From a virus, in the IMG/VR virus record IMGVR_UViG_3300047551_000492, positions 1 to 37,249 of that record: a stretch of DNA of 37,249 bases; one strand, written 5' to 3'. The notes beneath the pieces were generated by a model. The model ran no database searches, was not told where the DNA came from, and saw only the letters and a program-made list of their open reading frames with translations. A program made the position numbers and the translations under genes. Position 1 is the stretch's first letter. Each line of letters opens with the position of its first letter. Below are positions 4,454-32,501 of this stretch, piece by piece.

Positions 4454-5086
4454 ATGGCATATACACGTGGTGATAGTACACAAATCATCGTAGGTGCAGC
4501 AGCACTTTTTACGTATGAGGCAGGTCCACTACCAGAGACTGGTGTTCTTCCAGGTTACTCAGCAGGCGTATCTTACAGAGACACTCTTACTGACGAACTC
4601 GAGGGCGGACTTCCAGTTTTTCGTAACGTAGGTTATACAATGAATGGTTTGGAACTACAGTTCCAGCCAGACTTTGGCGAAGTACAGGTTGATCAGGTTC
4701 TTGACGTTGCTAAGTTGTTCAAGCAAGGCATGCAAGTTAATCTCAATACAACATTTGCTGAGGCAACATTGGAAAATCTTCTATTCGCACTTGCAGGTTC
4801 TGGAGATGATCTAGACACAACAGGTGCTCATCCAACACTAAATCTTTCAGCAGGTAATATTGGCGAATGTCCAGTAGAACGTGGTTTGGTTGCAGTAGGT
4901 CCAGGAACTGGTGACTGCGCTGACTCAGATTCTATTGAAAGAATTTATGTTGCATACCGTGCACTTTCAATCGAGAGCGTAACTGTAGGTGCCAAGCGTG
5001 ATGAGGCTACAATGTTTGAAGTTTCATTCCGTTTGCTACCAAATGACAACGCATCATACGGTAAGATCGTAGATCGTTCTCTATAA
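4454..5086 (+). CDS. Major tail (tube) protein
   Basis: The 210-residue protein is beta-rich and acidic, and lies just before the tail-assembly chaperones and tape measure gene, the standard position of the tail-tube subunit. It opens MAYTRGDSTQIIVGAAALFT and contains tube-protein-like patterns such as GLELQFQPDFGEVQVDQVLD and a C-terminal ATMFEVSFRLLPN strand. AGAGGTGA at 4441-4448 provides a good ribosome-binding site. Like the capsid gene, it favours CGT, AAC and TTC codons more than its neighbours do, fitting a protein made in many copies. A terminator-like hairpin follows its stop. Confidence 0.75.
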   Translation: MAYTRGDSTQIIVGAAALFTYEAGPLPETGVLPGYSAGVSYRDTLTDELEGGLPVFRNVGYTMNGLELQFQPDFGEVQVDQVLDVAKLFKQGMQVNLNTTFAEATLENLLFALAGSGDDLDTTGAHPTLNLSAGNIGECPVERGLVAVGPGTGDCADSDSIERIYVAYRALSIESVTVGAKRDEATMFEVSFRLLPNDNASYGKIVDRSL

Positions 5087-5104
5087 TACAACTTAATAAT
5101 ATCA

Positions 5105-5144
5105 GAAGGCCCAGTCATATTTGAAAAGGCTGGGCTTTTCTGTT
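5105..5144 (+). terminator. Rho-independent terminator after the major tail gene
   Basis: GCCCAG (5109-5114) pairs with CTGGGC (5130-5135). Wobble and A-T pairs (AAG with TTT) extend the stem to about 9-10 bp around a 15-nt loop, followed by TTTTCTGTTT. It separates the highly expressed tail-tube gene from the chaperone genes. Confidence 0.75.
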
Positions 5145-5153
5145 TGGTATAAT
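5145..5153 (+). promoter_or_regulatory. Extended -10 promoter (TGgTATAAT) giving a leaderless chaperone mRNA
   Basis: TATAAT (5148-5153) is preceded by TG one base upstream. A start seven bases past the box falls at 5160, the A of the ATG. No ribosome-binding site lies upstream of this ATG, so the message is predicted to be leaderless. No -35 at proper spacing is seen; TTGAAA at 5121 is 21 nt away. Confidence 0.6.
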
Positions 5154-5159
5154 AATTAT

Positions 5160-5849
5160 ATGGCAACAAAAATTTATCAAAGTCAAAAAATAAAATTGAT
5201 TGATGATACTGAGTTAGAAATAACTCCTTTAAAAATAAAATATCTTCGTGAGTTTATGGATGTTTTTCAAAATATGAAAAATGCTAAAAGCGATGAAGAA
5301 GCCATTGATATTTTGGTTGAGTGTGCACGAATTTCTTTAAAACAATTTTATCCAAAATTATCTAAAAATATAAATGTTGTAGAAGATAGTTTAGATTTAC
5401 CAAATGTTTATAAAATTGTTAATGCTGCAGGTAATATTAAAATAGATAAAAAATCAGAAGAAAGTATTAAAGATCAGGCAAACGGTAGTGGTCAAACTTG
5501 GGATGAGTTAGATTTAGTAAAACTAGAATCTGAGGCATTTTTGTTGGGTATCTGGAAAGACTATGAAGAGTTAGAAACAAACATATCTATGCCAGAATTA
5601 CTAGCAATATTGTCTACTAAAAGAGAGTTAGAGTATGATGAAAAAAAGTTTTTTGCAGCAATTCAGGGAGTAGATTTAGATAAAAATTCTAAAAAAAGTA
5701 ATGCCTGGGAAGACATGAAGGCAAGAGTGTTTAGTAAAGGAAAGGCCACAAACGCCAAGGACGTTTTGGCACTGCAGGGAGCAAATGCACAAAAGGCTGG
5801 TTTTGGCATTGGTATGGGCTTAGATTATGAAGACCTTACAAAAAAATAA
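5160..5849 (+). CDS. Tail assembly chaperone, long form
   Basis: The 229-residue protein has an N-terminal chaperone domain (about 1-95) and an extra C-terminal domain (about 105-229), encoded in one uninterrupted frame. The N-terminal part is clearly paralogous to the next gene's product: both share PLKI, LRxFM, LxECxxI, QxxPxL, EDxxDLPxVYxIVxAA in the same order. In lambda and many phages the long protein (G-T) is produced by a -1 frameshift at the end of the short one (G). Here it is an independent gene placed first. ATG 5160 is chosen because the in-frame TTG at 5121 lies inside the terminator hairpin and upstream of the -10. The chaperone binds the tape measure protein and recruits tail-tube subunits. 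Confidence 0.75.
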   Translation: MATKIYQSQKIKLIDDTELEITPLKIKYLREFMDVFQNMKNAKSDEEAIDILVECARISLKQFYPKLSKNINVVEDSLDLPNVYKIVNAAGNIKIDKKSEESIKDQANGSGQTWDELDLVKLESEAFLLGIWKDYEELETNISMPELLAILSTKRELEYDEKKFFAAIQGVDLDKNSKKSNAWEDMKARVFSKGKATNAKDVLALQGANAQKAGFGIGMGLDYEDLTKK

Positions 5850-5857
5850 AGTCGCTA

Positions 5858-5866
5858 TGGTATAAT
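5858..5866 (+). promoter_or_regulatory. Extended -10 promoter (TGgTATAAT) for the short chaperone
   Basis: TATAAT (5861-5866) with TG one base upstream lies just after the long chaperone's stop. A start near 5873 gives a leader of about 20 nt holding AAGGAGG (5882-5888) before the ATG at 5893. TTACAA at 5836-5841 could be a weak -35 at 19 nt. Confidence 0.6.
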
Positions 5867-5892
5867 TATTCTACTTATCTTAAGGAGGATAA

Positions 5893-6213
5893 ATGAGTAC
5901 AACCGTGCACGAACAAAAAGAACTAGTTCTAATTGACGGTACTAAAATCAAAGTTAGACCACTTAAAATATCTCTTCTTCGTCAGTTTATGAAGAAGTTT
6001 GAAGGTCTTGCTGGTGTCCAAAATGATAATGATAAGTCAATGACTCTACTTATAGAGTGTGTAGCAATCGCTATGGAACAATATAAGCCTGATCTAGCCG
6101 ATGTAACAAAACTAGAAGATGTTATTGATTTACCAACAGTCTATCAAATTGTGGAGGCTGCATCTGGAATTAATCTTTCAGACTCAGCATTGCTTGCTAC
6201 TTTGCAAGAATAA
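5893..6213 (+). CDS. Tail assembly chaperone, short form
   Basis: The 106-residue protein matches the N-terminal domain of the preceding gene along its whole length (shared PLKI, LRxFM, LxEC, DLPxVYxIVxAA positions) but has no C-terminal extension. The frame ends TAATAA, and the tape measure gene starts 23 nt later, leaving no room for a frameshift extension. It corresponds to the abundant short chaperone (lambda gpG role). Unlike the long form it has a near-perfect ribosome-binding site and its own extended -10 promoter, so it is probably made in larger amounts. Confidence 0.75.
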   Translation: MSTTVHEQKELVLIDGTKIKVRPLKISLLRQFMKKFEGLAGVQNDNDKSMTLLIECVAIAMEQYKPDLADVTKLEDVIDLPTVYQIVEAASGINLSDSALLATLQE

Positions 6214-6236
6214 TAAATTAATATAGGAGACGGTTA

Positions 6237-9200
6237 ATGGCAGGAGATGCAGTAAATAGCAATATTTTTGTAAATATTGATACTACTCAGGCCATGGCAC
6301 AACTTCGTGCCCTCGAGAAAGAATTAACTGCCCTTAACCGATCTCTAATAACTGGAACAAAAGCAGCATCAGTTGCTCAATCTAAATTCGCACAATCTTT
6401 ACTACATAACGTAAACGCTACTGGTCAGTGGTCTGCTGCAATGACCAGAATGACAACAGCAACAGATCAATTTGCTAATCGTTTAGAAAAATCCAAACTC
6501 TCTCTAAAAGAATACTACAGATATGGAATGGCGTCTACCCGATCATTCGGCAGATTTTTTCGTAATGAATATGATACTTTAGGAAAACTTGCTGAAAAGC
6601 GTGTAAAGACATTACAGCAACAATATGTACAACTAGGTCGTGACGCTACTGGGGCAATGCAGGCAATGCGTTTTACCCCAAAAACATTAAACTATAGTGA
6701 TGTAGGCACAAGAATGATGCTTGCAATTCAGCGTCAACAAATGCTTAATAAATTAATTGATGACGGCTCAACAAAACTACTAAACTTTGGTAAGAATACC
6801 CAGTGGGCTGGTCGTCAGTTAATGGTTGGTTTTACCGTTCCATTGATGTTATTTGGTGCTCAAGCAATAAGAACTTTTAAAGAAATAGAAACACAAACAT
6901 TAAGATTTAAAAAGGTATATGGTGATTTATTTACTAATAGTGATGAAACTGAAAAGGCTTTAGAAAATATAAATAAACTTGCTAAAGAATATACTAAATA
7001 TGGACTAAAGGTAGCAGATACAATTAAGACTGCTGCAGATGCTGCTGCTGCAGGTAATACAGGAGAAAATCTACAAAGAATTGTAGATCAGACAAATAAA
7101 CTTGCAGTACTTGGCGGAGTGACACAAGAAAAGGCCTTAGAGACAACAATTGCTTTACAAAATGCATTTAAAATTCAGGGAACAGAATTAAATCAAACAA
7201 TTGACTTTTTAAACGCAGTTGAAAACCAAACTGTTGTTGCTCTTGAAGATTTAACAGAGGCAATTCCACGAGTTGCTCCAGTTATTCAACAATTAGGTGG
7301 AGACGTAAAAGATCTTGCTTATTTCTTGGCTGCAATGCAAGAAGGTGGAATTAGCGCAGCACAAGGAGCAAACGCACTTAAGTCAGGACTTGCATCACTC
7401 ATTAATCCAACAAAAGCGGCTAAAGAAATGGCTGCAGATTTTGGTATAGGTCTTGAAGCACTAGTTAAAGACAATATGGGCAACGTTCGTGGCATGGTTC
7501 AGCAACTCGCTATGTCTTTAGACAGTTTAAGTGCTGGAGATAGAACTAGATTGATAGAAAAAATATTTGGTAAATATCAATTTGCTCGTATTTCTGCATT
7601 GTTAAATAACGTAACAACACAAGGAACACAGGCTGCAAGAGTTTTAGATTTAACAAATAGATCTGTTGAGGAACTTGCTTTATTGAGTCAGCGAGAAATG
7701 AAGACTCAAGAAAATTCTGCTATGAATCAATTAGCAGCAGCAATTGAGCAACTTAAAGTAGCAATAGCCCCTATTGGTCAATTATTTGCAGAAACACTAA
7801 CTCCAGCAATTAAGTTTATAGGAAAGTTTGCTGAAAAATTTAATAACTTACCAGAAGGTTTTAAGAAGGCATTTGCTATTATTGTCGGTGTAGTTGGAGC
7901 ATTAGGTCCTATATTCTTAATGACATTTGGTTTGATTGCCAATGCTTTTGCCAACGGTTTGAAGGGCGTTAACTTATTAAGAAAAGGATATCAGCAACTA
8001 GCATACGGATCATCTGATGCAGCATTTAAAACACAATTCTTAACACAAGAAGAGTTAGAAAATATAGCAGTAACCAATTCTTTATATGCAAAGCATGAAC
8101 AGTTATCTGCAGCATACAGATTAGAACAATCAGCCTTGGCATCTTTGGCATTAGAATATCAAAGAGCATCTGTTGCAATGAGAAACTTTAGTGCATCTAA
8201 TCCAGGAATGTTTTTACCACCTGGAGCAAGAGGTAGATTTGGAGGCACCCCGCCTCAAAGATTTTCTGATGGAACTGGTAGCGTTCCAGGACCAAAAGGC
8301 GCTGGAGATGTTGTGCCAGCAATGCTTTCTCCAGGCGAAGCAGTAATTCCTGCAGATCAGGCACAAAAATATTCTGGCTTCATTAGCGCAATGATTAAAG
8401 ATAAAATTCCAGGTCATTTCCGAGGACTTAATCCTTTTGCTAGAAATCCTTTTATGAAAACAGGATTTGCAGATGAATTAGTTTTTGGAGCAGCATCAGG
8501 TGTTGCGAAAAGAAGTGGTGGGGTTTATTCAGCGTCTGCTGTTGCAGGTAGAGACGATCTATTAAAAATAACCGTAGGGTCTGGAGCAGATGATGGACAA
8601 GATGTTTCATTTTTAATTCGTAAGGCCGAAAAAGATAAATTAGATAATATTTTACTAGAAAATGAAAAATACTATAGCGCTAATGAAAAAAGAAGTAAAA
8701 GGCTTGGAAAAATAAAGCGGGGAGAAAGTGGAATTCTTCATAGCGATAGTCCAGAAGGAAAGTTATATTATGCCATTAAAAGAAAAGGTTTTGCTGGAAA
8801 GGTTATAGATGATTTAGCAAAAGATATAGGCTCAAGAATGCCAGTTGGCAATTCTAGTAGAACTATACCACTCCCATCTCATATTACAAGAAAAAAGCAT
8901 AAGATAGCAAAGGCAATGCCACAAGAAGTAAGAGATGAGTTTGCTAATGAGTTGGTTTCTTTAAGAGATGCAATAAGACGTGGAGATATTACTGACTTAG
9001 ACGAAGCATCACTGTATGGAATTTTAAAAATAAAGCCAAAGGATGATTCAGGATTTGACAATATTGTTGCGAATTTAAGGTCTGGGCAAAAAGGTTACGC
9101 CTCATCCCACATAGTTCCAAGATCTCAATTAGCCAAGGAAGGTAAAAACGAATGGGCTGAAGACAACCTAATAATGGACTCTAATATTGTTAATGAGTCA

Positions 9201-12200
9201 TTAAAAAATACATTTCATGCTCCAATTACAAAACAAAGTGCTGAAACTGTTTTGGCAAGTCTTATTAAAGAGGCACAAGTATCTGAACTTAGTCCAAAAC
9301 AAAAAATTCTAGGATGGATTTTACAAGATAGAATTAAAAGAGGTTTTTACGATAATCCAAATAATCTAAAGACTTTTGCTCATTATGAAGATGGAGTGTT
9401 CTCTGTACCTGGCCCAAAGGGTGCTGGTGATATAGTCCCTGCCATGCTTTCTCCAGGAGAGGCTGTAATTCCTGCAGATCAAGCAGAAAAAAATCGTGGA
9501 CTTATATCTGCAATGATAGCAGGAAAAGTTCCAGGTGCAATAGAAGGTTGGGATGATGCAGATGAAAATACAAAGCCAGGTAAGAAAGGTGGCGTTAGAG
9601 ATTCGCTTAAATGGGCTAGTCCAAAAAACATTGCTGCTGCTGCACGTGGTGGATTTTTAGCAGAACAGGTCGGTGCAGCAGTAAAAAATGTTGGTGGTGC
9701 TGTTGGAAGAGCAACTGCTACAGGGGCCAAGAAAGCAGGAAAGGCTGCGCTTGCTGCTGCAGACAGAAAATATCAAAATTTTATGGAGGACAACACAAAA
9801 GAGTTAAAGAATAATACTGCTGCCACTGCCGACGGTACTGAGAAACAACAGATAACAACAAAGCAACAAGAAAAATTAGCAAAGCAAGAAAAAAAGATGA
9901 ATTGGACCCAAAAATCTATGATGCCTTCCATGGCTCTTGGTATGGCACTACCAATGATTGCCATGCAGCAACAAGCAAAAAATCCAGAAGGATTTATTGG
10001 AAGAAATGCTGATGCAATAATGTATGGCGGTATCGCAGCATCAGTTTTAATACCAATGCTAAATACACCAGGAAGAAGAGTTGCTGGAGGTCTTTTAGCA
10101 TTAGCGGGAGCAGTATATGCATATGAAAAATCTATTAGGAATGCAATATTAGAGGCTGCAAAATTTGGAGACTCATTACATAATACAGTTGCGGTTCTAG
10201 AAAGTTTTGGTGCAGTTACTGGAAGAATGTCTGCCACACAGGTTCAATTAGAAAAACGTCGTAATAGAATGACTGGCCTAGAGCCTTACGACTTATCTTT
10301 TGGACAAGATTTTATTAAGGGCGAGGCTGGCCAGAACTTTAGAAAAGAGTTTTTAAAGTCAACAGAAGGAGTCAGCAGAGGTTCTGCAAAACAAATTCTT
10401 TCCTCAAGACTTGCACAGGCAGTAACACAAAATGTTTTGTCATATGAACAGGCTCAGTCTATAGGGGTCGCCATAGCAAGATCTCTTGGAGACGAGGGCA
10501 TGGAGTTAGAAGTATTGGCAAATCTTAGAGGAATCATGGGGCCAAATGGCGAAGATTTAATTAAAGATCCTCTCAAGGTTCAAATGGAATTAATTGCAAA
10601 CAATAAAACAATTAACGATCAATTCTTTAACTCTTTAAATGCAGAAGCCAAAAAACAATATGCTGGTTTCTTAAATATGAATGGTCAAGAATGGAAGCAG
10701 GCTGGAGTTGTTGGGGTAGGCGCAGCAACAGCAGGCGGTTTATATGGACTTAAAAGATATGTACAAGGTGGTAAGGGAGCAGGCAACATTGGAAGAGCAA
10801 AAGGCGCTTATCACTCTGCCTTGGCAGCCAGAGGCGCCCTACCAATAGTTAGTTCAATTAAGGCAAAAGGACTTGCAAGAGGAGGAACACAGGCTGTTAG
10901 CGTAGGATCAAAAGCACTTATGGGTGCTCGTGCTGCATCATTAGCAGCAACTGGAACTGGTATAGGTGCTGCTGTAGGTATACCAGCATTGATTGCTACA
11001 GCACTTGCCGAGATTGGTCTTAGATATTATCAAAAGGGACAGGAAAGAAAAGAAGTAGGAAAGGTCGCTGGAGCATTGACTGGATCTGCAACAGGAACTG
11101 TTAGAGATGTAACTATGGGAATAGATGCTATTCGTGAAATAACAGATCTAAAAATATCTCAATTAGAAAAAGAATTAGCAATGACTAAAGAGGCTGAGAA
11201 ACGAAAGCAAATTGAAAAAGAGATTCTTGATCTTAAAACTCAATCAGACAAAGATGTAAATCAATTAGTGGGACAAAGAAAAGCAGCAATTGATCAAGCA
11301 ATGCAGTATCGAGATTCAATAAAAGATGATAAGGCTCGTGAATTATTTGATAAATCTATAGAACTATCATCAAAAGATAGAAGAAAAAAGTTAGAAGGAT
11401 ATCAAAGAACAGAAGCAGATAACCTTCAACTATACCTACAAACTCCAGAGTTTAGGGATGCAAAAGTTACTGCGCCAAAAGAACAAATTAGAAAGGCAAA
11501 AGAAGAATTAGAAGCAGCCAGAAAAGCAGCCCTGGAGCCAGGAATTTCAGATATTGAGGCACAAAAACGAAACGAACAAGTAATAGCCAAACGAAATGAA
11601 TTGATTAAATTAGAAAATCAAAAATTTGATCCAGGTAGATTACAAACACAAATAGATATTATGCTCAATGCTGGCTTAGTAACAGATGCAGATGTAATGA
11701 CATTATTAAGTGTTGCAAAAGAAACAAAAGAAAACCCACAATATTATATTGATTTGATTGCTAGTGTAGAAGATCCTGCAGGAGTGATGAACATTCTTGA
11801 TGGTCTAGATAATGTAAAAAGTAAAGAAATAGTTCTTAACATAGTTGATAAAACTAAGGGTACTGAAGAAGGCAAAAACATTATAGATGCATTAACAGAA
11901 TTTAAAAAGGCTAAGGCTGGATTAGATCAAGAATACGGACAAGACTTAGGTGTAGATTTAGATCAGGTAGTTAAAAGAGGAACAGGTAATGCAAACGATA
12001 TACTGTTTGGTAAAAATGGAATTGTAAACGAACAAAACCTAGAAGGCTCTAGAAAAGCACTTAAACGTACATCAAAAGAATTAGGTTTTATGAAGGCTCA
12101 AATTAATGAAAAAGAATTTAGTTCTAAAAATGCTAAAGACCAAAAGACAATGCTTCAAGGTCTTGCTAAACAATATCAGGAAACTTTCGGAGTTGCAAAT

Positions 12201-15200
12201 CAAACATTAGAACAGGTTATTGCAAATTGGGAAAAGATAGGCGGTCTTGATTCTGAGGTTAGGCTACAAGCAGTAATGACAACATCTGTAATTGAATCAA
12301 CTCAATCTCAAAATGAAATTGCTAAAGCAGTAAGAAATGCTTTTATACAAGAAAAGGGCGGATCAAAATATCTAAGCAGCATGCCTTCAGATTTTATTTC
12401 TTATGAGTATGAACAATGGGCACGAGATCCTAAAAACAAAGCAAAAATTCAAAAAATTGCTGAAAATGCAAAAAACGCACAGTATGATGTTTTGTTTGGA
12501 CCAGACGGGGCACTAAATCCAAATGCTTATAAATCAGAAGATCCTAAAGATACTGGACCAAAATTAAATATGGATTGGCTAAATGACTTACTACAAAAAT
12601 TAAAGTTAGTCAAAGAATCTTCTATAGATTCTACTGGAAGTTATACGGATCTAATAAAAGAATTAAATGTTTGGTTAGGAACAACAAACAAACTTAATCC
12701 TTCATTAGATAAACAAAAAGGCGCTCTTAGTGCCATACGTCGTGAGGCTGCAAAAACTGGAACAGTATTGTCTACTGAATTTATGACAATTTTAGAAAGT
12801 ATGGATCCAGAACAATTTGAGATGTGGACAAAGAAATTATTTGATTTAGGTAAAGAAGGTAGAATTACAGAATTATCTAAAGCATTTTTAACTATAAATG
12901 AAGCATTTAATACTGCTGTAATAGGTAAATATATTGATGATCTTGAAGAGGCTGTACGTCAAACAGAAGTTCAAGTAAAGGCTTTTGATGTTTTGGAAAA
13001 TGCTGGCTTTAAGGCAGCAGATGCAATGAGATTAGTTTCTGATGAAGCCTTAGCAGCAGCAGTAGCCAGTAAAAAAATGACTAAAGAAGAATTGAATTTA
13101 TTAAAACAAATTACCGAAACATCTCAAAAACTTGCAGATAAGTTCAAGGTTGTCGGGGACTTTAAGGTTAAGATGGAACAAATTGGTCAACAGTCTGCAG
13201 CATATATGAAATTAAGACAGGCTGGAATAGCAGCAGCGCAGGCTGCAGAACTTTCTAATAGCCCAGAAACTGCAAGAGCAATAGTATATTTGGCAGCAGA
13301 AGGTGGAGAGGCATGGGCAAATGCAACTGTGCAAATAAGAAAATATGCTGAAGAGCAAAAGGCATTGTCAAAACTATTACTTGCTGGCTCGGAAGCAGGA
13401 GATTACGAAGTTACAAGAATAGAGATGGCTAAAAAGTTTATTAATCTTCAAGAAAAACTTATTGAAATGCAGCATAGAAAAGAAAAAAGAAATCTTGAAG
13501 AAAAGATAATGTTACAAGAAGAAGTAGGTCGTCAGTTACAAAATCAAATTGATAAAATAACTAAGACTGAGATTAGACCTAAAGAAGATATTTTAACTCT
13601 TAATCAATATGAACTTGAAGAAATATCCTATAAAGAAGATCAGATTAATGAAACCTATGACGAAAGAATTGAGAGTCTAGAAAGAATTTATTCTATAAAT
13701 GCAAAAACTGCTGAATTAGAAAAGGCTAAACTTAATGTTGCAGAGGCTTTAAGTCGAGGAGATATTGCTGCAGCAGCATCAGCAATACAGCAAGTAAGAG
13801 AACAAGAAAGACAGAACGCACAAGATGCTGCAAGAGAAAATTTAGAAAATCAAAGAGAGTCATTAATTGATTCATTAGGGCGTAAGAAAATTGAAAAAGA
13901 AAACGCTAAAATACAGTTAGAGATAAGCAGAATTCAAAGAGATCGTCTAGATACCCTAGAAAGATCAAAAGAAATAGTTGACGAAGAAATAGATGCAAAT
14001 AATAGAAAACTAGAACAACTTGATATGCTTATACAAAAACAAAAAGAATCTATATCTTTCTTCGGTTTATCTTCTACAGAATTAGACGATGCTTTGTCGA
14101 TATTACAAATGGCCAAGGAAGCAGGAATTGATATTAACGATAAGGCTATATTAGATACATTTATCAAAGCGTTTAAAGAAGGAACTACAGATGCCGAAAA
14201 TCTTAAAAAACTTATTTCAACATTAGTTCCAGAATCTGCTTTGAAATCATTTGCTGAGTTAGCAGCATTAAGAGAAAAGGTTGGACAGCCACCATCTCAA
14301 TTGCCAGTGACAGATAAAGATGGTTTGCCAGAGCCATTCTCAATGATTAAACTTGCATGGGAAAAAATTCAAGGAGAGGCTAAGAAGTATGCTGACTGGA
14401 TATCTAATTTAGTTAAGGAAAAAATTGATTCAGCATCTATCTCTCAGTATGCTGATGCATGGACATTTGATGCTAAAAAGAAAATGTCTGACTACTTAAC
14501 AGACATTAAAGACAAAATTAAAGCAGGAACAATTAGCCCATCTGATATTGAAACTTATGCACAGGCTTGGGTAGATGGTAAACTGCCAGGTGGTAAGGCT
14601 GGAGCATTACAGTATTTGCAAGAATATTTAACCAAAGTATCTGAAGATCTTAAAGATCCAACTTATATTGATGAAGGCAAAAAACTTATTGAATCACTTG
14701 CAGAAACTTGGAAACTTCCAAAAGATGAGGCTGGAAACTATTATACATTTACAAAAGAAGAGCAAGCACTTTTAAGTCTTTTATTTGAAAGCGAAATTCA
14801 GCCAGGAGATATAGCAGCAGGAGCATGGGAAAGAGCCTTGGCTGCTGCAAAAGCATATTTTGATTATTTAAGGTCTCAGGGCACTGGTGGAACTGGTGGA
14901 ACGGGTGGAAATGGTGGTAGTGGTGGCTCACCAGAACAAGCGCTAAAAGAGGCTACAGAAGCAGCAGAAGATGCAGCAAAAGCAGAAAAAGAATCAGCAG
15001 ATGCATTAGCAGAAGCAGAGGCAGCAGCAAAAGAGGCTGCAGATGCATTGGCAGAAGTTGATGCAATTTTAACCGAAATGGAAACAGTAATAGATGAAAT
15101 GGATGAAGCCAACGATGCCATGGCAGCAGAAATATATAAAAAACTACAAAAGAGTGGATCAAGAGCAGAAGCAGAAAATTTCATAAACAACTATCTTGGA

Positions 15201-15542
15201 GGACAAGTTGGTGGTGGAGGACCACTTCAACAAAGATTTTTAAGCCGAGGAGGTCTTGTAAAGCCAAAATATTTTGCAGTTGGTGGAATGGCAAGGGGAT
15301 CAGATAAAATACCAGCAATGTTGTCGCCTGGGGAATTTATTATGAGTAGATATGCTGTTGAAAATTATGGATTAGAAAAGATGAAAGCCATAAATAACGG
15401 AGATTCTGTTGGTGATTCAGTGTATAATTATTCTATAGCGGTTAATGTAAAATCTGATGCAAACCCTGACGAAATTGCAAGAGCCGTGATGACTCAAATT
15501 AAACAAGTAGATTCCAAAAAATTAAGAGGTAACAGAATATAA
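6237..15542 (+). CDS. Tape measure protein (3101 aa) with an embedded HNH-like insert
   Basis: This giant protein sets tail length. At the usual rough 0.15 nm per residue it predicts a tail near 450 nm. Residues about 185-430 match the TP901-type core (FKEIETQTLRF, LAVLGGVTQEKALE, AAMQEGGISAAQGANALKSG). Hydrophobic stretches lie near 545-575, 1228-1300 and 1560-1600, and long charged coiled-coil helices occupy much of 1620-2750. A 45-residue block with the PAMLSPGE motif common in tape measures occurs at 682-726 and again at 1056-1100. Between them is an insert carrying SHIVPRS (H958), N977 and N986, an HNH-like spacing. A third, looser PAMLSPGE copy is at 3026-3033. A Gly-rich linker (2882-2898) precedes an Ala/Glu-rich helix. 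The start follows TAGGAGA, and the stop overlaps the next gene by one base. Confidence 0.92.
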   Translation: MAGDAVNSNIFVNIDTTQAMAQLRALEKELTALNRSLITGTKAASVAQSKFAQSLLHNVNATGQWSAAMTRMTTATDQFANRLEKSKLSLKEYYRYGMASTRSFGRFFRNEYDTLGKLAEKRVKTLQQQYVQLGRDATGAMQAMRFTPKTLNYSDVGTRMMLAIQRQQMLNKLIDDGSTKLLNFGKNTQWAGRQLMVGFTVPLMLFGAQAIRTFKEIETQTLRFKKVYGDLFTNSDETEKALENINKLAKEYTKYGLKVADTIKTAADAAAAGNTGENLQRIVDQTNKLAVLGGVTQEKALETTIALQNAFKIQGTELNQTIDFLNAVENQTVVALEDLTEAIPRVAPVIQQLGGDVKDLAYFLAAMQEGGISAAQGANALKSGLASLINPTKAAKEMAADFGIGLEALVKDNMGNVRGMVQQLAMSLDSLSAGDRTRLIEKIFGKYQFARISALLNNVTTQGTQAARVLDLTNRSVEELALLSQREMKTQENSAMNQLAAAIEQLKVAIAPIGQLFAETLTPAIKFIGKFAEKFNNLPEGFKKAFAIIVGVVGALGPIFLMTFGLIANAFANGLKGVNLLRKGYQQLAYGSSDAAFKTQFLTQEELENIAVTNSLYAKHEQLSAAYRLEQSALASLALEYQRASVAMRNFSASNPGMFLPPGARGRFGGTPPQRFSDGTGSVPGPKGAGDVVPAMLSPGEAVIPADQAQKYSGFISAMIKDKIPGHFRGLNPFARNPFMKTGFADELVFGAASGVAKRSGGVYSASAVAGRDDLLKITVGSGADDGQDVSFLIRKAEKDKLDNILLENEKYYSANEKRSKRLGKIKRGESGILHSDSPEGKLYYAIKRKGFAGKVIDDLAKDIGSRMPVGNSSRTIPLPSHITRKKHKIAKAMPQEVRDEFANELVSLRDAIRRGDITDLDEASLYGILKIKPKDDSGFDNIVANLRSGQKGYASSHIVPRSQLAKEGKNEWAEDNLIMDSNIVNESLKNTFHAPITKQSAETVLASLIKEAQVSELSPKQKILGWILQDRIKRGFYDNPNNLKTFAHYEDGVFSVPGPKGAGDIVPAMLSPGEAVIPADQAEKNRGLISAMIAGKVPGAIEGWDDADENTKPGKKGGVRDSLKWASPKNIAAAARGGFLAEQVGAAVKNVGGAVGRATATGAKKAGKAALAAADRKYQNFMEDNTKELKNNTAATADGTEKQQITTKQQEKLAKQEKKMNWTQKSMMPSMALGMALPMIAMQQQAKNPEGFIGRNADAIMYGGIAASVLIPMLNTPGRRVAGGLLALAGAVYAYEKSIRNAILEAAKFGDSLHNTVAVLESFGAVTGRMSATQVQLEKRRNRMTGLEPYDLSFGQDFIKGEAGQNFRKEFLKSTEGVSRGSAKQILSSRLAQAVTQNVLSYEQAQSIGVAIARSLGDEGMELEVLANLRGIMGPNGEDLIKDPLKVQMELIANNKTINDQFFNSLNAEAKKQYAGFLNMNGQEWKQAGVVGVGAATAGGLYGLKRYVQGGKGAGNIGRAKGAYHSALAARGALPIVSSIKAKGLARGGTQAVSVGSKALMGARAASLAATGTGIGAAVGIPALIATALAEIGLRYYQKGQERKEVGKVAGALTGSATGTVRDVTMGIDAIREITDLKISQLEKELAMTKEAEKRKQIEKEILDLKTQSDKDVNQLVGQRKAAIDQAMQYRDSIKDDKARELFDKSIELSSKDRRKKLEGYQRTEADNLQLYLQTPEFRDAKVTAPKEQIRKAKEELEAARKAALEPGISDIEAQKRNEQVIAKRNELIKLENQKFDPGRLQTQIDIMLNAGLVTDADVMTLLSVAKETKENPQYYIDLIASVEDPAGVMNILDGLDNVKSKEIVLNIVDKTKGTEEGKNIIDALTEFKKAKAGLDQEYGQDLGVDLDQVVKRGTGNANDILFGKNGIVNEQNLEGSRKALKRTSKELGFMKAQINEKEFSSKNAKDQKTMLQGLAKQYQETFGVANQTLEQVIANWEKIGGLDSEVRLQAVMTTSVIESTQSQNEIAKAVRNAFIQEKGGSKYLSSMPSDFISYEYEQWARDPKNKAKIQKIAENAKNAQYDVLFGPDGALNPNAYKSEDPKDTGPKLNMDWLNDLLQKLKLVKESSIDSTGSYTDLIKELNVWLGTTNKLNPSLDKQKGALSAIRREAAKTGTVLSTEFMTILESMDPEQFEMWTKKLFDLGKEGRITELSKAFLTINEAFNTAVIGKYIDDLEEAVRQTEVQVKAFDVLENAGFKAADAMRLVSDEALAAAVASKKMTKEELNLLKQITETSQKLADKFKVVGDFKVKMEQIGQQSAAYMKLRQAGIAAAQAAELSNSPETARAIVYLAAEGGEAWANATVQIRKYAEEQKALSKLLLAGSEAGDYEVTRIEMAKKFINLQEKLIEMQHRKEKRNLEEKIMLQEEVGRQLQNQIDKITKTEIRPKEDILTLNQYELEEISYKEDQINETYDERIESLERIYSINAKTAELEKAKLNVAEALSRGDIAAAASAIQQVREQERQNAQDAARENLENQRESLIDSLGRKKIEKENAKIQLEISRIQRDRLDTLERSKEIVDEEIDANNRKLEQLDMLIQKQKESISFFGLSSTELDDALSILQMAKEAGIDINDKAILDTFIKAFKEGTTDAENLKKLISTLVPESALKSFAELAALREKVGQPPSQLPVTDKDGLPEPFSMIKLAWEKIQGEAKKYADWISNLVKEKIDSASISQYADAWTFDAKKKMSDYLTDIKDKIKAGTISPSDIETYAQAWVDGKLPGGKAGALQYLQEYLTKVSEDLKDPTYIDEGKKLIESLAETWKLPKDEAGNYYTFTKEEQALLSLLFESEIQPGDIAAGAWERALAAAKAYFDYLRSQGTGGTGGTGGNGGSGGSPEQALKEATEAAEDAAKAEKESADALAEAEAAAKEAADALAEVDAILTEMETVIDEMDEANDAMAAEIYKKLQKSGSRAEAENFINNYLGGQVGGGGPLQQRFLSRGGLVKPKYFAVGGMARGSDKIPAMLSPGEFIMSRYAVENYGLEKMKAINNGDSVGDSVYNYSIAVNVKSDANPDEIARAVMTQIKQVDSKKLRGNRI
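8280..8414 (+). repeat. Tape measure internal repeat, copy 1
   Basis: Codes for residues 682-726 (starts SVPGPKGAGD, contains PAMLSPGEAVIPADQA, ends PG). It matches copy 2 at 37 of 45 residues, while many synonymous codon positions differ. That indicates an old duplication kept by selection on the protein, not a recent copy. Confidence 0.85.
9402..9536 (+). repeat. Tape measure internal repeat, copy 2
   Basis: Codes for residues 1056-1100 and is the direct, in-frame partner of copy 1, 1122 nt downstream (374 codons). The two copies bracket a 329-residue insert that contains the HNH-like motif. Confidence 0.85.
14880..14930 (+). repeat. Gly-rich low-complexity linker in the tape measure gene
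   Basis: Seventeen codons, mostly GGT/GGA/GGC glycine alternating with Thr, Asn or Ser (residues 2882-2898), form a short degenerate tandem repeat. It separates the long helical body from an Ala/Glu-rich C-terminal helix and is likely a flexible hinge. Confidence 0.8.
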
Positions 15543-24028: not shown

Positions 24029-24337
24029 ATGACCGACAAACAGAAGCGATTGGCTCTGTTGAGTAGGTTTGATAAACATTATAAGTTTAAACTAGAACAG
24101 AAGCCACAATACAATAAGTGGATTGAGCAGTGGTCTGCTGATGCACTTATAGAGTCATATGGCTTGGATCAGTGCTACGAGTTGTTAGAATATTATTTTG
24201 AGGTTACTGAAAATCCGACATGGAATCATTTTGCATATATAGCACATGATATACTTGAAAGAATACAGGAACAAGAAAAAGATTTAAAAGATAGATACGA
24301 GCGTAGACAGAGGGCAAAGGAATGGCTAAGTGAATAA
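24029..24337 (+). CDS. Small helical protein before the helicase; possible loader
   Basis: The 102-residue protein is almost entirely helical, with many Glu, Lys, Tyr and Trp (ALIESYGLDQCYELLEYYFE, then NPTWNHFAYIAHDILERI). It ends in a charged helix. Its stop overlaps the helicase start by 8 nt. Small helical proteins next to DnaB-type helicases in phages are often helicase loaders or replication accessory proteins, but no motif confirms this here. Confidence 0.6.
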   Translation: MTDKQKRLALLSRFDKHYKFKLEQKPQYNKWIEQWSADALIESYGLDQCYELLEYYFEVTENPTWNHFAYIAHDILERIQEQEKDLKDRYERRQRAKEWLSE

Positions 24338-25556
24338 CTCAGAATCAAAGTTAATCTCAGCAGTTCTTAAAGATAAGCAAGCCCATGTTATGCTTCAGGC
24401 AAATGTTGAAGGTATTTTAAAAACACATTTAGATGTTTGGCAATTCATTAGAAAATATTATGAACACAATTCTACAGTTCCGCCTGTAGAGTTGGTTGTT
24501 GAAAAGTTTAGAGATTTTGAAATTGCTGATGGTGTTGGATCAACTAAACATCACCTTGAGGAATTACAGGCAGAGTATCTTGTTAATAGTCTTAAGGATA
24601 TTTTAAGATCTGCTGCTACCGATGTTCAGGGTGGCCTTGGGGTAGAGGCTCTTGAAACTTTGATTAGCAAGACTGCAGAACTTAGAAAAAATACAGCAGC
24701 CATTCGTGACATTGATGTAACAGATCTTGATTCTGCTGTTGCATACTTTGAAAATCTTAAGAAGCAACAAGAGGCTGGCGCACTTGGAATTAAAACTGGA
24801 CTTCCAGGATTTGATAACTACCTTCCTTCTGGAATCATGCCAGGACAGTTAGGAGTCTTCTTGGCATATCCAGGCATAGGAAAGTCTTGGTTGTCTCTCT
24901 ATTTCGCTGTACAGGCCTGGAAACAGGGTCGTAGCCCAATGATCATAAGTCTTGAAATGTCTGAGGTTGAAGTACGTAATCGTGTATTTGCAATCATGGG
25001 TGAGGGTATCTGGTCTCATCGTAAATTAAGTGCGGGACAAGTAGAGATGGATATGCTAAAGTCATGGCACACAAAGAGTGTTAAAGGAAGACCAGAATTT
25101 CATATTATCTCAAACGATACAGGTGGAGACATCACACCACTAGTTCTTCGTGGCAAGATTGATCAGTATAAACCAGACTTTGTTATTGTTGACTATTTAC
25201 AACTAATGAGTCCAAACAGTAAGTCTGATAATGAAACTATTCGTATGAAGAATCTATCTCGTGAATTAAAGTTAATGGCTATTGCAGAAGAAGTTCCCAT
25301 TATTGCTATTTCTTCTGCTACCCCCGATGATGTGACTAAACTAGAAACCGTGCCAACCCTTGGTCAAACTGCATGGTCAAGACAGATTGCCTATGATGCT
25401 GACTGGGTATTGGCGCTTGGGCGAGGTACAAATAGTGATATTATTGAATGCGTATTTAGAAAGAACCGTAATGGTTTTATGGGGGAATTCCTAGTACAGG
25501 CTGATTTTGATAAGGGATATTACAGATATAAGGATTATGAAGATAAGACAGTATAA
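24330..25556 (+). CDS. DnaB-like replicative DNA helicase
   Basis: The 408-residue protein starts at GTG 24330 behind AAAGGAA. Residues 1-140 form a short helical N-terminal domain like the primase-binding part of DnaB. The RecA-like motor follows: Walker A AYPGIGKSWLS with K185 and S186, a catalytic-region ISLEMSEVEVRNR, Walker B VIVDYLQLM, and the C-terminal part with QTAWSRQIAYDADWVLAL and an Arg-rich FRKNRNG finger region. This is the phage replicative helicase that unwinds DNA ahead of the fork. It sits with primase, ssDNA-binding protein and polymerase. Length is slightly below bacterial DnaB. Confidence 0.9.
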   Translation: MNNSESKLISAVLKDKQAHVMLQANVEGILKTHLDVWQFIRKYYEHNSTVPPVELVVEKFRDFEIADGVGSTKHHLEELQAEYLVNSLKDILRSAATDVQGGLGVEALETLISKTAELRKNTAAIRDIDVTDLDSAVAYFENLKKQQEAGALGIKTGLPGFDNYLPSGIMPGQLGVFLAYPGIGKSWLSLYFAVQAWKQGRSPMIISLEMSEVEVRNRVFAIMGEGIWSHRKLSAGQVEMDMLKSWHTKSVKGRPEFHIISNDTGGDITPLVLRGKIDQYKPDFVIVDYLQLMSPNSKSDNETIRMKNLSRELKLMAIAEEVPIIAISSATPDDVTKLETVPTLGQTAWSRQIAYDADWVLALGRGTNSDIIECVFRKNRNGFMGEFLVQADFDKGYYRYKDYEDKTV

Positions 25557-25557
25557 T
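25552..25557 (+). promoter_or_regulatory. Possible -10 (TATAAT) giving a leaderless start at 25565
   Basis: TATAAT formed by the helicase's last Val codon, its stop and the next base lies 7 bases before ATG 25565, and that ATG has no ribosome-binding site. There is no TG extension and no -35, so this may be an accident of the GTA TAA codons. Confidence 0.3.
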
Positions 25558-25564
25558 ATGCGGT

Positions 25565-25891
25565 ATGGAGACATATCAGCACAAGCCTATCAAAAGGTTT
25601 GGTTTAGACGGTGTCATCAATGATGACTCTGCCATATATAGGTTACAGCAGGAATACATTAGACTGCTGGTATCTGAAATGCGTCTATCTGGATATGTTC
25701 CAAGATTTGACATTGATCCACAGTTTACAATAGAATATAATGACAAAAATAATACATATAACTTTATACTAAGCATATACGGAATATATATAGGGAGAAA
25801 GAAAAGCGAATGGACACTAGGAGTAGACGGAACGAAGGCAATTCATATACAGCCAACCAAATTAAAAGAGTACTCGCAGGATCTGGCTTAA
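25565..25891 (+). CDS. Protein of unknown function overlapping the primase gene
   Basis: The 108-residue product is an alpha/beta protein with a helix (AIYRLQQEYIRLLVSEMRLS) and a strand-rich second half (NTYNFILSIYGIYIGRKKSE). No motif is recognised. There is no ribosome-binding site before its ATG, which suggests leaderless or coupled translation. Its final 82 nt overlap the primase gene in another frame. Position between helicase and primase implies a replication-linked role; this is inference. Confidence 0.5.
   Translation: METYQHKPIKRFGLDGVINDDSAIYRLQQEYIRLLVSEMRLSGYVPRFDIDPQFTIEYNDKNNTYNFILSIYGIYIGRKKSEWTLGVDGTKAIHIQPTKLKEYSQDLA
25707..25736 (+). promoter_or_regulatory. Possible promoter (TTGACA-18-TAGAAT) for the primase
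   Basis: TTGACA (25707-25712) and TAGAAT (25731-25736) are 18 nt apart inside the preceding gene, with a predicted start near 25743 and a leader of about 67 nt to the primase ATG. There is no TG extension. Confidence 0.4.
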
Positions 25892-26754
25892 ATATAGAAA
25901 AAGAAGCAGAATCTGAGTATGTAGTATTTTGTCCATTCCATTCAAATCACAGAACACCTGCTGGTGAAATAAATAAGTATAGCGGTTTGTTTTTTTGTTT
26001 TTCTTGTAGCCATACTGCAGACTTGATAGAGTTAGTCATGCATTGTTCTAACAGAACATATTTTGAGGCTGTCAGATTTATTAAAAGTAAAGAAGTAGAA
26101 ACAGATATTGTTTCTGATATTTCTTCTAAGTTAGTTGAAAAAGAAGAATGGCCAGAATTAGACATGGCCATAGTAAATAAACTATATGAGCAGGCATTAA
26201 AAAGCGACAGAGCAATTCAATATTTCAGTGGAAGAAAAATAACTCAGGATTCTATAAAGAAGTTTAAACTTGGGTATTCTGAGAATCAAGACATGGTAAC
26301 TATTCCTGTACAAAACCATGAAGGATTGTGTGTCGGCTTTGTCGGAAGATCTGTAGAGGGTAAAACATTTAAAAATACCAACGGACTTCCTAAATCAAAA
26401 CTATTATTTAATTTGAATCGTGTTAAGACTGCAAGTCGTGTTTATGTTGTAGAGTCATCATTTGATGCCATAAGACTTGATCAGGTTGGACTACCAGCAG
26501 TTGCTACCCTCGGTGCTAATGTGTCATCAAAACAAATAGGTTTGCTTCAAAAGTACTTTAGCGATATAATGATTATTGCTGATAATGATGAGGCAGGCGG
26601 TAACATGAAAGATAAAATAGTTGAAAGATTAGGCTCTCAAGTTACTGTAATAAATATAGATAAACAATATAAAGATATAGGCGATATGGATGATAAGTCA
26701 ATAAAAGAACTGGACTTACAGTTTGACAAATCAATACTGTCTATGCTAAACTAG
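25810..26754 (+). CDS. DnaG-type DNA primase, compact form
   Basis: The 314-residue protein has a CHC2-type zinc-binding domain (C41, H44, C63, C66) and a TOPRIM catalytic core: VYVVESSFDAI with E215, and ADNDEAGG with D258 and D260. It lacks the C-terminal helicase-binding domain of bacterial DnaG (usually near 600 residues in total), so contact with the helicase must be made differently. The ATG at 25810, 82 nt inside the previous gene, is needed because no other ATG precedes the zinc domain. GGGAGAAAG lies upstream. It makes RNA primers at the fork. Confidence 0.88.
   Translation: MDTRSRRNEGNSYTANQIKRVLAGSGLNIEKEAESEYVVFCPFHSNHRTPAGEINKYSGLFFCFSCSHTADLIELVMHCSNRTYFEAVRFIKSKEVETDIVSDISSKLVEKEEWPELDMAIVNKLYEQALKSDRAIQYFSGRKITQDSIKKFKLGYSENQDMVTIPVQNHEGLCVGFVGRSVEGKTFKNTNGLPKSKLLFNLNRVKTASRVYVVESSFDAIRLDQVGLPAVATLGANVSSKQIGLLQKYFSDIMIIADNDEAGGNMKDKIVERLGSQVTVINIDKQYKDIGDMDDKSIKELDLQFDKSILSMLN
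26723..26752 (+). promoter_or_regulatory. Strong promoter (TTGACA-18-TAAACT, TG-extended) for the ssDNA-binding gene
   Basis: TTGACA (26723-26728), an 18-nt spacer and TAAACT (26747-26752), with TG one base upstream of the -10, lie in the last codons of the primase gene. A start near 26759 gives an 18-nt leader holding AAAGGAGA. Confidence 0.65.
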
Positions 26755-26776
26755 AAAAGAACAAAGGAGAAAAACT

Positions 26777-27439
26777 ATGAGCGTTATCAAGGGACTAAAA
26801 AATATTAATGCCCTGCTCGATAAGAAAAATGATGAAAGCGCACCGAAGGTACGCTGGTTAAAGTTAGCAGATGGACAATCTGTAAAGATTCGTTTCATTG
26901 AAGAACTTGATGAAGACTCTGCACATTATACAGAAGGCCGTGGTCTAGCACTTGTTGTTAAAGAGCACACTAATCCAAAGGACTACAAGCGTAAGGCTGT
27001 AGATACAATGGAATCAGAAGGCCGTGACTGGGCAGAAGAGATGTATCGTAAAGATCCAAAGGGTAATAGCGGATGGCGTGGTCGTCTTCGTTTTTACTGT
27101 AATGTACTTGTTGATGATGGCATGGAAGAAAAGCCGTATGTCGCTATCTGGTCAATGGGTGTAAGCAAGCAATCTGCATTCAACACAATTCGTGAGTATG
27201 CTCTTGAAACAGGAAGCATCTCAAATGTGGTTTGGAAGTTAAAGCGTAATGGTCAGGGAACTGAAACATCATACACTTTGATTCCTTCTGCTCCAGATAA
27301 GGAGCCATTTAAGTGGGAAGGCATTGAGCCATATCCATTGGAAAAGGCACTTCGTCGTGTTCCTTATGCGGAACAAGAAGCGTTCTATCTTGGATTTGAT
27401 TCTCCATCTACAACATCAGCGACGAATATCGACTGGTAG
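26777..27439 (+). CDS. Probable single-stranded DNA-binding protein (gp32-like)
   Basis: The 220-residue protein resembles phage gp32-type ssDNA-binding proteins: an N-terminal helix-strand (VRWLKLADGQSVKIRFIEEL), aromatic and basic strands (WRGRLRFYCNVLVDDG, KPYVAIWSMGVSKQSAFNTI) and a C-terminal tail ending NIDW. The usual zinc-binding cysteines of T4 gp32 are not evident. It has its own strong promoter and good ribosome-binding site, and codon use rich in CGT, AAG and AAC, all fitting an abundant protein. It lies between primase and polymerase, three bases before the polymerase start. Function is inferred from pattern and context. Confidence 0.65.
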   Translation: MSVIKGLKNINALLDKKNDESAPKVRWLKLADGQSVKIRFIEELDEDSAHYTEGRGLALVVKEHTNPKDYKRKAVDTMESEGRDWAEEMYRKDPKGNSGWRGRLRFYCNVLVDDGMEEKPYVAIWSMGVSKQSAFNTIREYALETGSISNVVWKLKRNGQGTETSYTLIPSAPDKEPFKWEGIEPYPLEKALRRVPYAEQEAFYLGFDSPSTTSATNIDW

Positions 27440-27442
27440 TAG

Positions 27443-30400
27443 ATGAATTACGTTCCATTACATTTACATACTCACTTTTCACTATTCGATGGTATTGGGT
27501 TGCCGTCTGAATATGTTGACCGTGCTACGAAGTTGGGTATGCCTGCAATAGCGATTACTGACCATGGCTCCCTTTCTGGCCACAGAGAAATGTATCGTGT
27601 TGCTAAATCTAATGGGATAAAGCCGATTCTTGGCATAGAAGGGTACATGTGTGAAGATAGGTTTGATCAGCGAGACAAAGCAGATCGAACAACTCCACTC
27701 GATATGGTTTATAATCATATTATCCTTCTTGCCAAGAATCAGGTAGGCTTAGAAAATCTTAATAAGTTAAATGAGATAGCATGGACAGAGGGGTATTATA
27801 AAAAACCACGCATTGATTTTGAAGTACTATCTAAATATAAAGAAGGAATTATAGTTTCCTCTGCATGCCCAAGTGGAATTATTGCCAAGTCTATTGAACT
27901 TGAAGAACTTGGAATGGCAAAGAAATACATTAAGTGGTTTAAAGAAGAGTTTGGCGACGACTATTATTTAGAAGTTATGCCACATAACGATGAATCAATT
28001 AACAGAAACATTTTATTATTAGCGGACGAGTTTGGTATTAAGCCAATCGTAACTCCAGACTGCCACCATGTCGATCAGTCTCAAAGAGAAATCCAAGAAC
28101 TTAAACTTATTCTCAATACCTATGCAAATAAGATTCAGAAAGATGCCACATATGAAAAGTCCAAAAAGCAGGGGGACTTAATGAAGCGTCTCGATTATCT
28201 TTATGGTGCAGATAGACAGATGTCATTTAATAAGTTTGACATTCATCTCTTATCATATGAAGAGATTCAGGCTGCTATGGAAAAGCAGTCTATATTTAGA
28301 ACAGACATTTATGAAAACACAATTGATCTTGCAAACAAGATTGAAGACTATGACATTAAAGATAATCTAAACCTACTGCCTGTTCAGTACAAGAATCCAG
28401 ATAAGCAATTATCTGACCTTGCTTATGAAGGATTAAAGGCTAAAGGATTTTCAGACAATAAAGAATATGTGGATAGACTTGAAGAAGAGTTAAAAGTTAT
28501 TAAGGATAAAAAGTTTGGCCCTTACTTCCTTGTTGTTCAGAGTATGATATCTTGGGCAAAGAAGGAAGGAATAATGGTTGGTCCAGGTCGTGGATCATCT
28601 GCAGGATCATTGCTTTGTTACACACTTGGCATTACAGATATAGATCCTATTGAGCATGGGCTATTGTTCTTCCGTTTTATTAATCCAGAGCGCAATGACT
28701 TTCCAGATATTGATACAGATATTCAAGATTCTCGTCGTGATGAAGTAAAGGATTATCTTGTTAGACAGTATAAGCATGTTGCTTCTATTGCTACATTTTT
28801 AGAGTTTAAAGATAAGGGTGTAGTGCGAGATGTTGCTCGTGCATTAAATATACCATTAGCAGATGTAAATAAAGTATTGAAGTTAGTAGATACATGGGAT
28901 GAGTATTGTTCATCAAAAACTACTGCTTGGTTTAGAGAAAAATATCCAGAGGTGGAGCAATATGGGGAACAACTTCGTGGTCGTATTAGAGGTACTGGCA
29001 TTCACGCTGCTGGTGTTGTCACTAGCAAAAATCCTATTTTTAGGTACGCACCAATGGAAACACGCAACTCTCCTGGTAGCGATGATCGTATACCAGTTGT
29101 GGCGGTTGACATGGAAGAGGCTGAAAAGATTGGTCTTATCAAAATCGACGCACTTGGTCTTAAAACCTTAAGTGTAATTAATGATACATTAAAGATTATT
29201 AAAGAGCGTGAAGGCACAAATATTGATTTACTTAAAATTGATATGTCTGATCAAAAAGTTTATCAGATGCTTTCTGAGGGGTATACAAAAGGAGTCTTCC
29301 AGTGTGAAGCAACTCCATATACAAACCTTCTTATTAAGATGGGCGTAAAAAATCTTGCAGAATTATCTGCCTCAAACGCCTTGGTTCGTCCAGGTGCTAT
29401 GAATACCATCGGTAAAGATTATATTGAGAGAAAACATGGCAGACAGGCTGTTAATTACCTGCATCAAACCATGAAGCCTTTTACAGAAGAAACATATGGG
29501 TGTATCCTATACCAGGAACAGGTTATGCAAGCCTGCGTTCAATTAGGAGGGATGTCTTGGTCTGAGGCTGATAAAGTTCGTAAGATTATCGGTAAGAAGA
29601 AAGATGCAAGAGAGTTTGATGCGTTTCAGGAACAGTTTGTTAAAGGTGCTTCTAGGTTTGTTAGTCCTAATCAGGCTCGTGATTTATGGCATGACTTTGA
29701 AGCGCATGCGGGATATTCGTTCAACAAGAGTCATGCGGTTGCTTATTCTACGCTCTCGTATTGGACGGCATGGCTAAAGTATCACTATCCAATTGAGTTT
29801 ATGTACTCATTATTGAAAAATGAAAGGGACAAAGATGCACGAACTGAATATCTTATTGAAGCGAAAAGAATGGGGATTAGCATTAAGTTGCCTCATATTA
29901 ATGATTCGGATATCGATTTTAAGATTGAGGGTAAGGGTATTCGGTTTGGACTCTCGGGGATCAAGTTTATCTCTGATAAGATTGCAGAACGCTATATATC
30001 AGCACGACCTTTTAAGTCTTTTGAGGCACTTAGAGATTTCACGTTTACGAAAGGAAATGGAGTAAATAGTAGAGCATTAGAAGCATTAAGAATTATTGGT
30101 GCTGCTACTTTCCCAGATAATCCACGAAATGATAATGAGATTCGTGAAAATCTTTATGAGTATTTAGGTCTACCAGAATTTACACAAACAGTTCCATCAC
30201 ACTATCACGCCTTTATTAATCCAGTAGAAGATTTTGAAGAAAAGGGATCGTTTATTCTTATGGGAATGGTTAAAGGCATTAAGCGTGGCAAGGGTTGGTC
30301 TCGTGTTGAGATATTAGATAAAACAGGAAGCATAGGTGTATTTGATGAAGAGCAAACTACAATTGAGGCTGGACGAAGTTATATTGCACTCTGTTCTGAT

Positions 30401-31724: not shown

Positions 31725-31893
31725 ATACACAATTTATGAAGGAAAGTTTCCTTGTAAGACTTGCAAAAAAGAAGTAAAGACAATAAGAGTTTATCCAGCA
31801 ACTGGGATGGCATCCTGGATGTGTCAAGATAAACATTTATCAGAAGTTCAATTATTTAAGGTAGGATATAAGAAGGTTAAAAAACATGAGTGA
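31717..31893 (+). CDS. Small zinc-ribbon protein (58 aa)
   Basis: A GTG-started frame overlaps the recombinase end by 8 nt and the next gene by 8 nt, filling an otherwise empty gap. The 58-residue product is basic, with C13-x2-C16 (FPCKTCKKEV) and C36-x3-H40 (WMCQDKH), a probable zinc ribbon. A tight overlap on both sides and a coherent zinc pattern argue for a real gene. Function unknown; a partner of the recombinase or nucleases is possible. Confidence 0.6.
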   Translation: MDKYTIYEGKFPCKTCKKEVKTIRVYPATGMASWMCQDKHLSEVQLFKVGYKKVKKHE

Positions 31894-32468: not shown

Positions 32469-32472
32469 TATC

Positions 32473-32481
32473 TGATATAAT
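32473..32481 (+). promoter_or_regulatory. Extended -10 promoter (TGaTATAAT) for the Cas4-like gene
   Basis: TATAAT (32476-32481) with TG one base upstream lies in the short gap before the Cas4-like gene. A start near 32488 gives a 14-nt leader with AAAGGA (32491-32496). No -35 is seen. Confidence 0.5.
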
Positions 32482-32501
32482 TATACAAACAAAGGATAAT
32501 A

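Follow-up and report, generated by a model that had tools for sequence, protein, structure and literature searches.

A tail-assembly chaperone pair likely made by gene duplication instead of programmed frameshifting

Introduction

Most long-tailed phages produce a short and a long tail-assembly chaperone from one gene by way of an occasional slip of the ribosome. Such frameshifting is often treated as nearly indispensable for the ratio of short to long protein. In phage lambda, the G and GT proteins are made through a -1 frameshift (PMC5009743). The gene pair described here resembles lambda G/GT in its inferred function and in its position before the tape measure gene, but it consists of separate genes and would represent a natural replacement for frameshifting.

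Two-gene tail chaperones have been described before. The Bacillus thuringiensis phage 0305phi8-36, reported in 2007, carries a two-gene tail chaperonin, orfs 143 and 144 (PMC2147016). According to that report, orf144 has essentially no recognisable ribosome-binding sequence, and its authors infer a low level of the long product (PMC2147016). A two-gene tail chaperone whose long gene has no ribosome-binding site is already known in kind. Like that phage, the locus analysed here has short and long paralogues with a common G-like domain and no frameshift, located near the tape measure gene. However, in 0305phi8-36 the short-type gene (143) comes first and another gene lies between the pair and the tape measure gene, whereas here the long gene comes first and the short gene abuts the tape measure gene. 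Furthermore, the section of that report drawn on here describes neither a frameshift relative nor a leaderless promoter for 0305phi8-36. Here frameshift relatives are known, and the missing ribosome-binding site of the long gene can be explained by a -10 element close to its ATG.

Genes 26 and 51 of T4, which we take to be its short and long chaperone genes, are divergent and lie on opposite strands, in contrast to the tandem, co-oriented genes with conserved start-signal asymmetry found here. Some T4-like phages are described, in a secondary mention, as having a separate short gene and a fused long gene (Vladimirov, Gautam and Davidson 2022, cited in PMC10885494). The present locus shares with these phages and 0305phi8-36 a separate short gene, a fused long gene and no frameshift. 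The T4_baseplate family (PF12322) gave only one weak match, E=0.04, in one relative, and independent origins of these two-gene systems seem likely.

The closest isolated relatives are Stanwilliamsviridae of Streptomyces (e.g. Coruscant, Moab, Sham) and the Rhodococcus phages NiceHouse and Francesca. These have homologous G and T parts in the same gene order, but differ from the phage studied here in having retained a single G gene, with T lying in the -1 frame, instead of two genes. Because such slipping relatives are extant, each protein can be compared between the ancestral state and the derived one. As far as the literature cited here shows, what is new is the size and consistency of the lineage, the survival of frameshift sister lineages, a tree with one duplication, the long-first order and a leaderless account of the missing ribosome-binding site. 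We consider it quite probable that the pair encodes the counterparts of lambda gpG and gpGT, the chaperones of tail assembly, and was obtained by duplication instead of frameshifting.

Results

The window, by which we mean the whole stretch of DNA that was analysed, is a 37,249-nucleotide virus record from IMG/VR (IMGVR_UViG_3300047551_000492). Within it, two chaperone genes separate the major tail protein gene from the tape measure gene, all on the + strand. The major tail protein gene (4454..5086) matches phrog_2175 (E=4e-30), and its product shares 46-47% identity with proteins annotated as major tail proteins in Streptomyces phages. The long, GT-like chaperone gene (5160..5849) is a single unbroken frame encoding 229 aa. 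Its product comprises a G-type domain (5160..5459) defined by alignments and AlphaFold, a linker (5460..5495) whose position matches the -1-frame entry of the frameshift relatives, and a T-type domain (5496..5849) identified by alignment and by phrog_10474 (E=2e-15). The short, G-like gene (5893..6213; 106 aa) ends in tandem stop codons, TAATAA (6211..6216), and the ATG of the tape measure gene (6237..15542; 3101 aa; PhageMin_Tail, E=4e-27) lies 23 nt past the first of them. An initial annotation, made from the sequence alone, had given these coordinates and frames for an unbroken long gene and a separate short gene, and had placed the tandem stops 23 nt before the tape measure ATG; both readings were correct. 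Elsewhere in the window (24330-33362), the phage encodes its own replication set: a DnaB-type helicase, a DnaG-type primase, DNA polymerase III alpha, RecA and a Cas4/PD-(D/E)XK-like nuclease.

The two proteins are paralogues, as had been supposed. Over 96 residues, BLASTP finds 36% identity between the short protein and approximately the first 100 residues of the long one (E=9e-24). One PHROG, phrog_10504, is matched by both proteins (E 6e-21 and 1e-21), while the second half of the long protein matches a different family, phrog_10474. Among isolated phages, homologues of both halves were found only in Streptomyces phages (127 records), with additional homologues of the T half in five Rhodococcus phages. 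Most of these homologues are annotated as tail assembly chaperones and occupy the equivalent genomic place, and the T half is homologous to the -1-frame T of the Streptomyces phages.

Structure prediction, from alignments that left out rows with non-ATG starts and rows from annotated phages, gave the two proteins of the window the same G fold, in which four helices follow a beta hairpin. The AlphaFold pLDDT of the G domain of the long protein is 68-91 by blocks of ten. The model of the short protein is of modest confidence (pLDDT 66), and its best viral structural match is a tail assembly chaperone (E=1.7e-6). Relations of the G domain to named chaperone families are weak: 18 of 58 members matched phrog_1932, with a best E of 0.001. 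Pfam and NCBIfam gave no confident family for the G domain, and solved structures gave no match by sequence or by fold. The pair has features of the G/GT class, namely the gene position, a shared N-terminal domain with an extra C-terminal domain in the long protein, and a relation to known chaperones through annotated homologues, the viral fold match and the weak PHROG matches.

Related loci were collected from eight viral-contig scans, one genome-contig scan and annotated phages. The relatives are mostly uncultured metagenome contigs, and the scans give near relatives first, so that the locus counts below hold among the matches listed and are no census. At least 601 loci were gathered, at least 353 of them unique over the chaperone region. 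Among the matches listed, 237 of the 353 unique loci carry a fused long gene followed by a short gene, and 102 show the ordinary arrangement, in which a single G gene is accompanied by T in the -1 frame. The split, for which the initial annotation had proposed a survey of related phages, recurs with the same long-first order, and the short gene is found at every split locus long enough to show one. Its recurrence in 237 unique loci, together with start signals kept in nearly all loci examined (see below), makes the layout more than chance.

The remaining loci comprise truncated contigs, single-base breaks (L138, L600) and a doubled domain match in one G gene (Francesca, L456). No clear intermediate, with a frameshift gene and an extra copy, was seen among the 353 unique loci listed; L138 and L600 were considered as such and rejected, since they look like single-base breaks. 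The scan of the genome collection yielded one relative (L295), with a frameshift-type chaperone. This phage contig, about 110 kb long, was assigned to a metagenome bin labelled as a cyanobacterium, and is perhaps a misbinned virus.

We next consider how the relatives with the ordinary layout express T. In all 102 unique frameshift loci among the matches listed, the T part lies in the -1 frame, and 94 of them have an in-frame slippery heptamer of the form X_XXY_YYZ where the -1 frame is open (CCCAAAC in 62, CCCAAAT in 20, AAATTTA in 11 and GGGAAAA in 1). Such in-frame heptamers are 15 times denser at the site than elsewhere in the same genes. Furthermore, 59 of 61 aquatic cases have GAC as the Asp codon preceding the slippery site, compared with 328 GAT to 92 GAC (22% GAC) for Asp elsewhere in those genes. 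Based on the presence of the heptamer, its density and the GAC bias at the site, a programmed -1 frameshift is well predicted in these relatives. In each of five Streptomyces phages inspected base by base, G is a single gene and T occupies the -1 frame; the joined product is annotated in Sham, NiceHouse and Francesca.

Some frameshift loci depart from the common site. Two Boydwoodruffvirinae of Streptomyces (L162, L165) have no perfect heptamer (C_CCG_GAA) despite T being in the -1 frame. One sublineage (L451, L468-L486) uses AAATTTA in place of CCCAAAY, and in a member of it (L470) this site reads GCGGATTTA and is broken. Of note, frameshift-type G genes (e.g. L296-L375) start with TTG in 46 of 65 cases; the long and short genes of the split phages almost always start with ATG.

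In the split loci, a slippery site with T in another frame, the canonical frameshift arrangement, was not found. The heptamer is absent from 172 of 195 short-gene ends, and the other 23 contain TTTAAAY with no T part after it. A hidden frameshift in the short gene was rejected on both grounds. The initial annotation had held that no extended product can arise from the short frame; this agrees with these data, since no T part follows the short gene in split loci. The long gene is itself one frame. Traces of the older arrangement appear to persist in both proteins. The short protein keeps the zero-frame tail of G (INLSDSALLATLQE vs IKLNDPNLLAAAQEA), and in the long protein the linker leads into a T start, TWDELDL, whose -1-frame counterpart in relatives is STWEELDL (S/T-W-E/D-E-L).

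A tree of 87 G domains over 105 columns, with a distant outgroup, was rooted on the Rhodococcus phages, which are themselves frameshift-annotated. Long copies form one clade (100/95) and short copies another (99/96). The two clades are sisters (100/96), are nested among frameshift G lineages and sit on long stems (0.59 and 0.63). Sister clades inside frameshift lineages point to one duplication that replaced programmed frameshifting, and a single duplication would be the simplest reading of the tree. Together with the annotated homologues and the loss of slippery sites, this supports the earlier proposal of duplication in place of frameshifting.

Both copies are under purifying selection, with median dN/dS of 0.16 for the short gene, 0.17 for the long G part and 0.09 for the long T part. 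Within one locus, the long and short G sequences share a mean of 42% identity. The G head of the long form is the more variable (mean identity 60%, vs 70% for the short protein), and a few sites are fixed differently, such as K27 and Y28 in the long form against S and L in the short. The greater variation of the long head and the differently fixed sites suggest that the two G heads may have specialised, a course that was impossible while both forms were one sequence.

Each copy has its own start signals. An exact extended -10, TGGTATAAT, precedes both the long gene (5145..5153) and the short gene (5858..5866), as the initial annotation had reported. A Shine-Dalgarno sequence, AAGGAGG (5882..5888), lies 4 nt before the ATG of the short gene. 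Nothing like AAGGAGG is found before the long ATG, whose distance from the first T of TATAAT is 12 nt. No other -10 in the window stands 6 nt from an ATG; the rest of the intergenic -10 elements are 20-26 nt away. Thus, the reported contrast between a short gene with AAGGAGG and a long gene with none stands, while the lack of a ribosome-binding site that was described for the long gene is better understood as the sign of a leaderless mRNA.

A generic promoter scan found nothing clearly above shuffles in the chaperone region, and the promoter claim therefore rests on conservation. Among the long genes, 190 of 193 have an extended -10, with 5-9 nt from its end to the start codon in 188 of 193; 192 start with ATG, and none of the 193 has a Shine-Dalgarno match over 3 nt. 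Their -10 hexamer is variable, in contrast to the exact extended TATAAT that lies 23-38 nt before the ATG of all 195 short genes, each of which also has a Shine-Dalgarno match of at least 4 nt. This short-gene leader (TGNTATAAT, 23-38 nt, Shine-Dalgarno) is of the ancestral type: frameshift G genes have an extended -10 at 22-33 nt in 64 of 65 cases and a Shine-Dalgarno sequence in all 65. From this resemblance, the short gene keeps the old leader and the long gene has a new, almost certainly leaderless, start.

A published survey treats a -10 box (TANNNT) lying some 12 bp before the start codon as the mark of leaderless genes, which it puts at an average of 19% of genes in Actinobacteria (PMC3160421). 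The isolated relatives infect Actinobacteria. The long gene in the window has its -10 at exactly 12 nt, no Shine-Dalgarno sequence and an ATG. Its mRNA should be leaderless, as the -10 places the predicted transcription start at or within about 3 nt of the ATG.

Upstream of the long promoter lies a probable intrinsic terminator (5103..5142), a hairpin GCCCAG...CTGGGC followed by CTTTTCTGTTT, which would close the major tail transcript. It folds at -20.2 kcal/mol (z=-4.4 vs shuffles). A simple terminator scan did not report this hairpin, whose loop exceeds the length that the scan permits. Of 193 loci, 131 have a stem followed by T upstream of the long gene; between the genes, upstream of the short gene, one was detected in 2 of 195. 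With no terminator detected between the genes in 193 of 195 loci, long-gene transcripts can serve the short gene as well.

Discussion

The comparisons above allow an origin for the pair to be proposed. The ancestor would have had a single G gene, with its T part reached by programmed -1 frameshifting, and this unit would have been duplicated in tandem. The first copy may then have fixed the extended frame, yielding the long gene. The second copy may have lost the T part and the slippery site while keeping the zero-frame stop, yielding the short gene. Synteny, slip sites and the tree support this course of events and show that both copies have been retained ever since. In the short gene, the promoter and the Shine-Dalgarno leader are of the ancestral type; the long gene has a promoter so near that its mRNA should start at the ATG or within about 3 nt of it.

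Judged from the sequence, the long promoter may also read the short gene and so add to an excess of the short form. The expected output would be strongly skewed towards the short protein, as it is elsewhere through frameshifting. By analogy with lambda, coating of the tape measure would fall to the short form and recruitment of tail tube subunits to the long form. The asymmetry of the start signals supports the view that the ratio of short to long protein may be set at initiation. On the fuller reading, in which a whole lineage swapped frameshifting for a gene pair, leaderless and Shine-Dalgarno starts came to set the ratio and the heads diverged into a specialised heteromeric coat of the tape measure, we are evenly divided.

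It is also conceivable, if rather unlikely in our judgment, that the duplication occurred but that the start signals set no unequal ratio, with the two proteins having distinct and roughly equal roles, or with mRNA stability or protein turnover deciding their amounts. Actinobacteria can translate leaderless mRNAs well, so that leaderless need not mean weak. Moreover, the strong divergence of the copies (mean 42% identity within a locus) and the differently fixed sites make specialisation likely, and leaderless genes are common in Actinobacteria (PMC3160421). However, the asymmetry, an exact TATAAT with a Shine-Dalgarno sequence against a variable -10 without one, is kept across divergent loci, which points to selection on expression.

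The second G gene might instead have been acquired from another phage by recombination, with no duplication in place. Phage tail genes are mosaic, and the long stems of both clades would fit such an event. The long and short clades are nevertheless sisters, apart from all sampled frameshift G genes, and the short gene has the ancestral leader at the ancestral position. We consider this origin improbable, and duplication in place remains the reading that we prefer.

A further alternative is that the long gene yields its own short product by internal slippage or termination, in the manner of dnaX, and that the short gene is an accessory copy. The linker in the window does contain a run of six A (GAT AAA AAA TCA), after which the -1 frame stops within a few codons. 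Across the 195 long genes, however, the linker has no conserved slippery heptamer. In-frame heptamers occur there in just 22 and differ in sequence, and slippage within the long gene was rejected for this reason. The short gene, for its part, is present in every long-enough locus and under purifying selection, which makes an accessory role, and this alternative as a whole, very improbable. Finally, the idea that an error of sequencing or assembly broke up a normal frameshift gene, a concern raised with the initial annotation, has a negligible chance of being true: one-base breaks do occur in single contigs (as in the short gene of L138), but independent contigs at 237 unique loci among the matches listed repeat the split, a locus from another assembly record (L082) encodes a long protein identical to that of the window, and the second gene, far from being a broken half, is a paralogue that has diverged and that has a promoter and Shine-Dalgarno sequence of its own.

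The duplicated pair makes two questions testable. One is what counts, the ratio or the sameness of the domain common to both forms; the other is whether a recoding signal can be replaced by conserved starts that are weak or leaderless. There is also a warning for annotation: a large family of lake phages has the two-gene form, and a frameshift should not be forced on these genomes. In one lake contig (L152:4740-5400), a gene resembling SAM-dependent methyltransferases, a family read by eye from the translation, lies in a 777 nt gap between the long and short genes, which indicates that the two are separable units.
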